A DNA stretch of 24,515 bases from a virus. A program made the position numbers and the translations under genes. The stretch spans positions 1-24,515 of IMG/VR virus record IMGVR_UViG_3300046506_000094; one strand, written 5' to 3'. The notes under the pieces are model-generated. The model was not told where the DNA came from and made no database searches. It was given only the letters and a program-made list of their open reading frames with translations. Positions 1,706 through 21,693 of this stretch are shown piece by piece (the first letter of the stretch is position 1; every line of letters begins with the position of its first letter).

Positions 1706-1720
1706 CATTTGGAGGCCAAA

Positions 1721-2089
1721 TTGGCTGACAACACAAATCGTTTGGCCGGGATTGCGTTCATCTCGGTCGATGGCCAGAGCTACATGCTCCAGGCCGACCT
1801 TACGTACCGTGTTTCGAACATCAGCCGCGAAACGCTGATCGGTCAGGACACGGTGCACGGCTACGCCGAAAAGCCCGAAGCCGGCATGATCTCTGCGACG
1901 CTGCGTGATGCAAAAAACCTTAGCGTTGCGTCGTTCAACTCGATGACAAACGTTACGGTCGTCTGCCAATTGGCGTCAGGAAAAACGGTGATAGGACGCA
2001 ATATGTGGACCGTTGACGTGCAAGAAGTTAAAACCGCAGAGGCGACTTTCGATGTAAAATTCGAGGGTCCATCCGTTACGGAAGCCTAA
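1721..2089 (+). CDS. Tail tube protein (Mu gpM-like), TTG start
   Basis: A 122-residue protein with a sequence typical of Mu gpM tail tube proteins (M-ADNTNRLAGIAFISVDGQ at the start; the block WTVDVQEVKTAEATFDVKFEG near the end). It polymerises into the inner tube that the sheath surrounds. The frame is open to a TTG at 1709, but GGAGG at 1711-1715 lies five bases before the TTG at 1721. The 1721 start is therefore preferred; it puts the Shine-Dalgarno outside the coding region and gives the usual family length. The neighbours are the sheath gene upstream, beyond a terminator, and an inserted HNH gene four bases downstream. Product call is strong, exact start moderately so. Confidence 0.87.
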   Translation: MADNTNRLAGIAFISVDGQSYMLQADLTYRVSNISRETLIGQDTVHGYAEKPEAGMISATLRDAKNLSVASFNSMTNVTVVCQLASGKTVIGRNMWTVDVQEVKTAEATFDVKFEGPSVTEA

Positions 2090-2903: not shown

Positions 2904-3188
2904 ATGCAACCCGAAGAAAAAATCCTGAATCTCCGCAAGCCCGTCACGATCGGCTCGGGTGAGGGCGCGGTGACGTATGACAAGCTAAACCTCCGCGAGC
3001 CGACCGCCGGCGAGCTTGATAAGGCCATGTCCGCATCGACCAACATCGGTATCGGCATCATGCTGATTCACCTGGTGGCCGGCGTCCCGAAACTTGCTGT
3101 TGAGAAACTTTGCCAACGTGACTTCACGGAGGCGAACGAGTATCTCGGGGGTTTTACCGACGATGGCCAGACGGTTGCGGAAACGTAG
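2904..3188 (+). CDS. Tail assembly chaperone, short form (Mu gp41-like)
   Basis: A 94-residue zero-frame product with the tail-chaperone signature LREPTAGELDKA (about residues 31-42). Such proteins coat the tape measure during tail assembly and are absent from the mature virion. The position between tube and tape measure is the expected one. A heptamer G GGT TTT (3149-3155) allows a -1 shift into a second open frame that runs to the tape measure start, so this gene should encode a short and a long form, as in many tailed phages. The ATG at 2904 is one base after the HNH stop codon. An internal GGAGG (3128-3132) lies 16 bases upstream of the slip site and may stimulate shifting. Confidence 0.85.
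   Translation: MQPEEKILNLRKPVTIGSGEGAVTYDKLNLREPTAGELDKAMSASTNIGIGIMLIHLVAGVPKLAVEKLCQRDFTEANEYLGGFTDDGQTVAET
3149..3155 (+). promoter_or_regulatory. Slippery heptamer for -1 ribosomal frameshifting
   Basis: GGGTTTT reads G GGT TTT in the chaperone frame, which fits the X XXY YYZ rule. Both tRNAs can re-pair one base back (GGG, TTT). The -1 frame is open and protein-like from here to the TAA at 3305-3307. An upstream GGAGG (3128-3132) could act as an internal Shine-Dalgarno stimulator. No downstream pseudoknot was worked out by hand. Confidence 0.85.
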
Positions 3189-3307
3189 TCGCCTCGGTCA
3201 CCTACCTCTACCGCTGGGGGCCGCACGAGGCATGGACGTTGCCTCTATCGCGGCTCGCCTGGTGGTTGGAGCAGGCTGAACAAATCAAGAAACAGATGGA
3301 GTCGTAA
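3155..3307 (+). CDS. Frameshift extension of the tail assembly chaperone (long form)
   Basis: This is the -1 frame continuation of the chaperone. After slipping at 3149-3155 the ribosome reads on from TAC at 3155 for 50 codons, giving a fusion of about 134 residues. The extension begins YRRWPDGCGNVV and contains YLYRWGPHEAW and LAWWLEQAEQ. This pattern of a tryptophan-rich helix before the tape measure is usual for the T half of G/GT-type chaperones, which is thought to contact tube protein while the G half holds the tape. There is no start codon of its own near the beginning. The TAA overlaps the tape measure ATG as TAATG (3305-3309), coupling the two. Expression as a fusion is inferred from frame and synteny. 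Confidence 0.82.
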   Translation, partial: YRRWPDGCGNVVASVTYLYRWGPHEAWTLPLSRLAWWLEQAEQIKKQMES

Positions 3308-5157
3308 TGGCAGCCGCTACGCCTTTTGTCGTCACGATTACCGCTGTCGATAAAGCCACGGCCTCTGTTCGCAAGATCAAGGCGTCTATCGCCGGCATCA
3401 CGAAACCAGCGCGTGATCTGAAGGCCTCGTTCTCGAGCTTCAGCAAAGAGGCCGGTCTTGATCGCGTCGGTAAGTCGATGAAATCGCTTGGCACGGCGGC
3501 GGCGGATACGGCGCGCTCTGTAGCCTCGCTCATTACCCCGCTGACAGCGATTGCGGGTCTCGGTTCGATAGCCGGCATTGCCCTCCTCGCCAATGAGTGG
3601 GGCAAGATGGGCGCTGAAGTTGAGCGCACGTCGGGCGTTTTGGGCGTCGGTACTGGTGATCTGCAGGCGTACCGTGCTGCGGCGAAACTCGCTGGCCTGT
3701 CGGCTGACGACATGACTGGTAGCCTCAAATCACTGGGCCGCACGATCGAGGATGCAACCTACGGGCGCAATCAGGATGCGCTCGTGATGATGCACAAGTT
3801 CGGCATCTCGCTTCACCGCACGAAGGATGGTGCTGTCGATGCGACGCGCGCACTGAAGGAAGTCGCGAATGCGATCGTCGCTCAGAAGGGTAACGTGCAG
3901 GCGCAGGGTCTTATTGCTGGCGCGTTCGGCGTTGAATCGCTGTTGCCTCTCCTTCAGAAGGGCGGCAAGGGGATCGACGAATTCGTGAAAAAGGCCCGAT
4001 CGATGGGCCTCGTCTTTGACGAGAAGGAACTCGCCAAGGGGCGGCAGTTCGACGCCAACATGCTGCACCTCGAGGCAGCGGCAACGCGGCTCAAGTATTC
4101 GTTTGGCGAGGCGTTGGCCCCCGCCGTCGAGAAGGTTTTAAACGTCGTTGGTCGGCTCGTCGACAAGTACGGCGATGTCGTCGCGACGCGCGTCTCGGAG
4201 TATGTCGAAAAGTTCGCCAATTGGATTGATTCGGTCGATTGGGATGAGACAGCCAAGGGCATCGGAAGCTTCGTCGATCAACTCGGCGGCGTGAAAGGAA
4301 TTGCCGTTGTCATTGCGGCGATCACGTTCGCTGGACCAATCGGGGGCGTCCTGAACCTTATTGCCAGCCTCGTCACCTTGACGACTCTTACCATCCCGGC
4401 CGCAGTTGGTGCCCTAGGAACGCTCGGCCTTGCTGGTATCGCTGCATGGGGTGCTCTGAAGGTCGCAAAAATGGCTGGGTTGCCAGATGTCGACAACAAT
4501 CAGGGCATCGAGGATGTGAAGAACGGCGATTGGCTCGCCGCGTCCACACATCTGTCGGCTGGCGATTTTCTTCGGGCCCTTGCCGCACGCGCAGCAGGTA
4601 CGTCGAATGTCGACATCGCAGCATCGCTTGGCACTGGAGGGAATCCTGCATCGTCCAGCGATAAGGGCGTGCCGCTCGGCATCCGCAGTAATAACCCGCT
4701 GAACATCCTTCACGACGGGAACGAGAGAACCTACGCGACGCCTGAGGATGGCATCGCTGCGGCTACGGCGAATCTTCGGCGCCGCTACGGCGGCCTGACT
4801 CTCGCTCAGATCTCGGATAAGTGGACGGGTGGCGCGCGCACTGGCAACACGCCCCAGCAGATGGCCAACTATACCGGCCTGCTATCAAAAGGTACGGGGC
4901 TATCGGCCGATCAGGTGCCGAATCTGAACGATCGAGACACGCTTGCAGGTTTAATCAAGGCGCAGATTCGGGCGGAAAACGGTGTTCAGCCTTACAGCGA
5001 TTCACAGGTCGCAGCAGGCGTCGACAAGGGAATTCAAGTCGACGTGCATCTCCACAATGCGCCTGCTGGAACGAAAGCAACGGCGAGCGTCCGGTCGGGC
5101 AAAGGCACCGCAACGGCGCGAGTCGGAACCTCTAACGTAACTGGACCCCCTGTATGA
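3307..5157 (+). CDS. Tape measure protein with embedded peptidoglycan-hydrolase-like domain
   Basis: A 616-residue protein that sets tail length and is expelled during DNA entry. The N-terminal half is Ala/Lys-rich and helical, with a hydrophobic segment near residues 78-96 and a long hydrophobic stretch at about 330-385. Both are normal for tape measures. Residues about 456-570 begin GIRSNNPLNI and continue with ATPEDGIAAATANLRRRYGG, then LAGLIKAQIRAENG. This resembles the GIRNNNPGNL muralytic domain found in phage virion and lysin proteins, so the protein may open the cell wall locally during infection. Assembly chaperones lie upstream and gpN downstream, with ATGA overlap (5154-5157). The tape measure call is strong; enzymatic activity is an inference. 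Confidence 0.85.
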   Translation: MAAATPFVVTITAVDKATASVRKIKASIAGITKPARDLKASFSSFSKEAGLDRVGKSMKSLGTAAADTARSVASLITPLTAIAGLGSIAGIALLANEWGKMGAEVERTSGVLGVGTGDLQAYRAAAKLAGLSADDMTGSLKSLGRTIEDATYGRNQDALVMMHKFGISLHRTKDGAVDATRALKEVANAIVAQKGNVQAQGLIAGAFGVESLLPLLQKGGKGIDEFVKKARSMGLVFDEKELAKGRQFDANMLHLEAAATRLKYSFGEALAPAVEKVLNVVGRLVDKYGDVVATRVSEYVEKFANWIDSVDWDETAKGIGSFVDQLGGVKGIAVVIAAITFAGPIGGVLNLIASLVTLTTLTIPAAVGALGTLGLAGIAAWGALKVAKMAGLPDVDNNQGIEDVKNGDWLAASTHLSAGDFLRALAARAAGTSNVDIAASLGTGGNPASSSDKGVPLGIRSNNPLNILHDGNERTYATPEDGIAAATANLRRRYGGLTLAQISDKWTGGARTGNTPQQMANYTGLLSKGTGLSADQVPNLNDRDTLAGLIKAQIRAENGVQPYSDSQVAAGVDKGIQVDVHLHNAPAGTKATASVRSGKGTATARVGTSNVTGPPV

Positions 5158-20458: not shown

Positions 20459-20824
20459 ATGCCAATCATCAAACACCTAGTCGATTCCGCACAGGGCAAA
20501 CACCCCGTGACGGCTAAGCGCTCGGGCCACTGGCCAACCGTGCGTAAGCATCACCTTGCGTTGCATCCGGTCTGCGAAGTGTGCGGCGGCACGGAAAAGC
20601 TCGAAGTGCATCACAAACTTCCATTTCACATTGACCCGTCGCTGGAAACCAATCCCGACAACCTGATCACGCTTTGCGAGGCAAACCCCGTTCTGAACTG
20701 CCATCGTATTTTTGGCCATCTGAATAATTTCCGGGGGTGGAATCCAGACGTGGTTGAGGATGCAAAGGCATGGCGTGCAAAGCTTGCTGAAAATCAGGCG
20801 CGAGTTCGCCAGAAGGCTGAATAA
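20459..20824 (+). CDS. HNH endonuclease
   Basis: A 121-residue HNH nuclease. The metal and catalytic core reads CEVCGG (39-44), LEVHHKLPFH (48-57), NPDNLITLCEA (65-75) and NCHRIFGH (80-87). This gives the Cys pairs expected for a structural zinc and the His-Asn-His active site. Such short HNH proteins in phages can be packaging nucleases acting with terminase or free-standing homing enzymes; nothing here decides between them, and no terminase gene is in the window. It starts one base after the adaptor gene stop. Its 3' end overlaps the degraded GIY-YIG gene on the other strand. Confidence 0.88.
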   Translation: MPIIKHLVDSAQGKHPVTAKRSGHWPTVRKHHLALHPVCEVCGGTEKLEVHHKLPFHIDPSLETNPDNLITLCEANPVLNCHRIFGHLNNFRGWNPDVVEDAKAWRAKLAENQARVRQKAE

Positions 20825-21619
20825 AAGCAAGTAGTCGCGTCCGAAAGATCGCGATGTCGTTGCTGTCGATGAATGCGTGACGCTCGATGGCCGCTCGTTT
20901 TCCTCGGCTCTCTGATATGTGCAGACCCAACTCGCGAAATACCCTGCAGAGCGCCTTTCGGCTAATCTTTCGACCGGTCTTCTCCAAGTGGACGGCGATC
21001 ATTTCCTTGTCGGTGTATTTCTGAAAATAGCAATCGAGAATTATGCTGCGATCAGCGTCCGCCCATGACCCAGCCTTCTCGCCAGTTGCCCAATTCCGGC
21101 CCTTGCTCTTGGCGCCGATCAGTCGCTTCGTTTCCTCTGCATGGGTCTTGCCGAAAAACGAATTCTTTTCGCCAGTGCGGGCTTTGAATTTCTCTATGGC
21201 TGACGGCGGCATCTTCATGCCCTTACGCATCCGGCTTTGTTTCTGGCGCGTCTCAGCAGAAACCACGCGTCCCTTCAGGGCTTCGGATATGCGCTGCTTG
21301 TGAGACCAAGGTAAGCGCCGCCCTTACCGCCCTCCGCTGAATTGTATCCGGCTGGGGCCATGCATGCGCAATGATCGATCCAGTATTGCTCACGCGCATG
21401 TAGTGATTGTTTTGAGGCGCAATTATCGACGATCTCCCACGAGAAGTTTGCGAATCCATGCTTGGCGAGAGCTCGATGAAAGTATGTCGATGGCTTAGCA
21501 GAAAGGTTTTCATGAGCGCGCCTGCGGCGCCGTAGCGTCTGAACCGTTTGACCGATGTAGACCTTTCCATCAATCAGGTTTGTGACCTTGTAGACGATCC
21601 CATAAATCGCTTCGCTCAC
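20667..21619 (-). pseudogene. GIY-YIG homing endonuclease, disrupted by a -1 frameshift
   Basis: The first part (GTG at 21619, after AGGAAGGG) carries the GIY-YIG core IYGIVYKVTNLIDGKVYIGQ, then RRRRAHENL and GYNSAEGGKGG. That frame ends at a TGA near 21275. The sequence continues in another frame as LPWSHKQRISEALKGR, then KQSRMRKGMKMPPSAIEKF and NSFFGKTHAEETKRL, the NUMOD3-type DNA-binding motifs expected next. One base is missing around 21315-21325. The total span is one base short of 318 codons. The C-terminal end runs 158 bases antisense into the HNH gene, so its original stop may also be lost. It could be inactive, a sequencing error, or rescued by shifting. Confidence 0.8.
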
Positions 21620-21693
21620 GTCGCCCTTCCTCTTGTTTGGACACCTTAGCAACTATACCACAAAACCGTCCGCTCTCGGACAAGGAGTAATCC

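Follow-up and report, generated by a model that had tools for sequence, protein, structure and literature searches.

The window considered here, the whole stretch of 24,515 nucleotides of viral DNA that was analysed, contains a gene for a tail-assembly chaperone, and the question raised by this locus is whether some of the ribosomes translating that gene change frame and so make a second, longer protein. It is very probable, judging from the sequence, that -1 slippage at the heptamer GGGTTTT yields such a longer chaperone in this Mu-like phage. Frameshifted tail chaperones have long been known, and the present case is a further well-supported member of that group. The gene lies between those for the tail tube protein (PF10618) and the tape measure, and ahead of it an HNH endonuclease gene has been inserted; the order tail tube, chaperone, tape measure confirms an earlier, sequence-only reading of this DNA, in which the place and layout had been likened to those of the chaperones of other tailed phages. 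The features are collected in Table 1.

Table 1. Features of the chaperone locus and its neighbours, in window coordinates.
Feature	Position	Strand	Evidence
Tail tube protein gene; expected partner of the extension	1709..2089	+	PF10618, E 6.4e-38
Short-form tail-assembly chaperone, zero frame, 94 aa, Phage_TAC_7	2904..3188	+	PF10109, phrog_166
GGAGG, Shine-Dalgarno-like; candidate stimulator	3128..3132	+	16 nt before heptamer; shared by close relatives
Slippery heptamer G GGT TTT	3149..3155	+	X XXY YYZ phase; 39/82 non-redundant loci
-1 extension, 50 aa plus TAA; E'-like C-terminal domain of the predicted long form	3155..3307	+	phrog_10636; pN/pS; P2 E' profile match
Tape-measure protein gene; start overlaps the stop of the extension (TAATG)	3307..5157	+	phrog_2276, E 2.7e-47

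The identity of the short form is given by its match to PF10109 (E 6.9e-13, 48.9 bits against a curated cut-off of 25) and to the tail protein family phrog_166 (E 4.2e-10). The zero frame of its gene runs ...CTC GGG GGT TTT ACC... to a TAG at 3186-3188, and the codons GGG GGT TTT (3147-3155) contain G GGT TTT in the X XXY YYZ phase; when re-read in the window, the site proved to have been placed correctly to the base. On its + strand the window has GGGTTTT at this one place. Of 3072 codon positions in its other late genes, five begin an in-phase X XXY YYZ site. When the 30 final codons of the chaperone gene were resampled synonymously, a heptamer in phase turned up in 10.6% of draws, and GGGTTTT itself in 0.55%. 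The heptamer alone is thus suggestive, and as evidence for a frameshift only moderate; it is conservation in relatives, rather than the motif, that decides the case.

From 3122 the -1 frame stays open, past the zero-frame TAG, as far as the TAA at 3305-3307, and the 50 residues that would be read from 3155 after the shift are YRRWPDGCGNVV...KKQMES; the TAA shares its last base with the ATG of the tape measure (3307-3309). The extension alone matches phrog_10636 with an E value of 2.4e-10. In 23 close relatives, pN/pS in the single-frame part is 0.32 in the -1 frame, as opposed to 1.42 and 1.60 in the others, and the extension is therefore evolving as protein in the -1 frame, under purifying selection. 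A Pfam search with the extension of the window by itself did not find PF06528 (Phage_P2_GpE), returning only DUF6760, at 0.09. The link to E' of phage P2 comes instead from the family, since the extension of the window alone is insufficient for it: in hhalign, a profile of 50 family extensions aligned with P2 E' with a probability of 96.8% (E 2.1e-10), and PF06528 is matched by 19 of the 50 members, at best with 1e-16. PDB matches of both alignments, to the plastid ribosomal protein PSRP-3 and to a designed repeat protein, were weak (E ~0.01) and were judged to be due to chance. The earlier description of 50 protein-like residues in the -1 frame, ending at TAATG with the tape measure, thus agrees with the coordinates and is strengthened by the evidence for selection and by the homology to P2 E'.

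Counting the window itself, 82 non-redundant loci were obtained from scans of IMG/VR, GTDB genomes and phage collections; Cupriavidus, Pandoraea and Paraburkholderia are the hosts named for close relatives. Beyond the zero-frame stop, 81 of the 82 continue in the -1 frame for at least 32 codons, whereas the third frame is open for at least 30 codons in only 15. The sole exception is L010, in which an IS4/Tn5-type transposase gene interrupts the chaperone gene just after GGGTTTTACC; the interruption (L010:3240-3501) falls at the slippery site, and at a contig end. The slippery sequence is GGGTTTT at 39 loci, TTTTTTN at 31 (in most cases aligned three codons farther upstream) and AAATTTT at one, and 11 have no canonical heptamer; the class has changed at least eight times on the tree, with the extension persisting throughout. 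Where the site is GGGTTTT, G stands at the wobble position ahead of GGT, be the codon one for Gly, Ala, Glu or Ser, and the heptamer retains GGT and TTT although these genes otherwise prefer GGC (66%) and TTC (79%). Homologues without a heptamer and without the second frame, which the sequence-only reading had regarded as the finding that would speak against it, were not encountered; the 11 loci that lack a canonical heptamer retain the second frame. The turnover of slippery sites over the 82 loci constitutes a natural series for asking to what extent a -1 shift depends on a complete heptamer.

Most of the heptamer-less loci form a sister lineage (L049, L058, L075, L077, L078, L082, L085, L091 and L094), to which L079 and L099 are to be added as further loci with no X XXY YYZ site. 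At the place aligned with the heptamer they have kept the codon pair NNT TTT/TTC, together with the -1 extension. The Phe codon is preceded by T in 11/11 of them and in 3/22 at the aligned Phe of members with a slippery site elsewhere (p 2e-6, a value uncorrected for relatedness). It is conceivable, although the balance tips slightly the other way, that this lineage arose from a GGGTTTT ancestor and makes a candidate -1 shift by re-pairing of the Phe-tRNA only.

The site had also been called a textbook one, which holds for the motif but not for the downstream RNA, where no stable element was found: the structure following the heptamer in the window is not unusually stable (z 0.37 for 85 nt and -0.23 for 55 nt), there are no covarying or compensatory pairs in 16 close relatives, and an Rfam search of the window returned no family. 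A consensus fold was not taken as meaningful, since the slippery site itself is paired in it. The GGAGG ahead of the heptamer is found mainly in close relatives and is missing from the GGGTTTT members L053, L057, L060, L065 and L067; its conservation, as judged from the codons it spans, is probably for the most part a by-product of xEA codons. Its distance from the heptamer also exceeds the usual spacing of stimulators. Strong hairpins (z ~-4) occur right after the heptamer in L059, L066 and L093, outside the lineage of the window, and are candidate stimulators there.

The second frame might be read without any ribosomal slippage. It might encode a separate small protein, translated from its own start or by re-initiation after the zero-frame stop rather than as a fusion, and there is some precedent for this in a Zymomonas record, which annotates the counterpart as a separate gene; furthermore, 17 of 81 family members, distant ones, have an early ATG, GTG or TTG in the -1 frame (ATG in four). 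However, the window and the remaining 64 have none of these codons in that frame before the conserved core, with its W motif, and an own start is unlikely for that reason, while slippery sites are kept exactly where the two frames must join. We consider a separate protein very unlikely. That the frame is open merely by chance, or is the end of an inactivated gene, is barely credible: although open frames are favoured by high G+C and the overlap beyond the heptamer spans only 33 bases, such an origin is contradicted by the purifying selection in the -1 frame, the presence of the extension throughout the family and its homology to P2 E'.

The frame could, alternatively, be changed during transcription, by polymerase slippage giving mRNAs with insertions or deletions, and the runs of T6 or T7 in some relatives might lend themselves to this. 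The G5T4 of the window is short for efficient polymerase slippage, which counts against such a mechanism, as does the fact that the X XXY YYZ phase is kept over 39 loci, and transcriptional slippage is regarded as highly improbable. The earlier interpretation as a -1 ribosomal frameshift is thus supported by an extension that is family-wide, under purifying selection in the -1 frame and homologous to P2 E'.

In the scheme that follows, we infer the occurrence of the long form, its ratio to the short one and its binding partners. Most ribosomes would stop at the TAG and release the chaperone of 94 residues. A minority would slip back by one base at G GGT TTT while GGT is occupied by tRNA-Gly and TTT by tRNA-Phe, the two tRNAs re-pairing in tandem, tRNA-Gly from GGT to GGG and tRNA-Phe from TTT to TTT, and would continue to the TAA to give a 134-residue fusion, ...EYLGGF-YRRWPDG...KKQMES. 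By analogy with phage lambda, the N-terminal part shared by both forms may bind or coat the tape measure, the extension of the rare long form may recruit tail tube subunits, and both forms would be expected to leave the finished tail.

Among known systems, gpE/gpE+E' of P2 is the closest. There, too, the short form belongs to PF10109 and the shift, annotated for E+E', is -1; the extensions are homologous, and in both phages the gene stands between those for tail tube and tape measure, with an in-phase site and a -1 overlap, the extension overlapping the tape-measure start. The P2 site is T6G (PMC3931495) rather than GGGTTTT, and the P2 case is experimentally supported whereas the present one is predicted from sequence. 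The sequence-only reading had taken the long form of Mu-like gp41 as its model. This is apt in so far as Mu gp41/Mu_56 belongs to the same tail module and the extensions look alike (GPEWALSLPLSRFFRHCQQA against GPHEAWTLPLSRLAWWLEQA), but Mu gp41 matches PF10109 weakly, the extension profile match is just 39% and, above all, the Mu long form is made, and so annotated, by a -2 shift (PMC5009743). A -2 shift would place the extension in the +1 frame, but it is the -1 frame that carries it in the window and its relatives; because of this difference, the closest mechanism is that of P2, whose E/E+E' pair fits better. These Mu-like tail modules of Burkholderiaceae would have a -1 shift homologous to that of P2, rather than the -2 shift of Mu. 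The gpG/gpGT pair of lambda shares the logic and the gene position, a short chaperone accompanied by a rare form with a -1 extension. The lambda heptamer is GGGAAAG, unlike GGGTTTT, and the comparison made was one of logic and position. In lambda it is the short form that coats the tape measure, and the rare -1 long form uses its extension to recruit the tube protein (PMC5009743). The identical heptamer GGGTTTT is the predicted -1 site of the tape-measure chaperone gp16/gp16.1 of Burkholderia phage PhiE067 (PMC7266877), which was compared by site only; its proteins are longer, with the shift at G127 and a fusion of 204 aa. The authors of the Burkholderia Mu-like phage KS10 found no such frameshift site (PMC2628397).

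It had been anticipated that ordinary gene calling would overlook the extension, and this is borne out by the records of related phages, for example Citrobacter phiNP and Serratia BZS1, which lack the long form and for which an annotation correction is indicated.

Two further observations concern genes of a homing type. The tail tube and chaperone genes of the window are separated by an HNH/endonuclease VII-like gene (phrog_1035, 2093-2902, + strand), whereas in most relatives the two are only a short distance apart; a related gene is found at other places of the tail module in L002, L003 and L010, and this scattered placement is as expected for a mobile homing-type endonuclease. On the - strand of the window, at 20667-21652, an ORF with a GIY-YIG domain (21275-21652) and one with NUMOD3 (20667-21266) follow one another head to tail, each in a frame of its own, and are perhaps a single homing endonuclease split by a frameshift.
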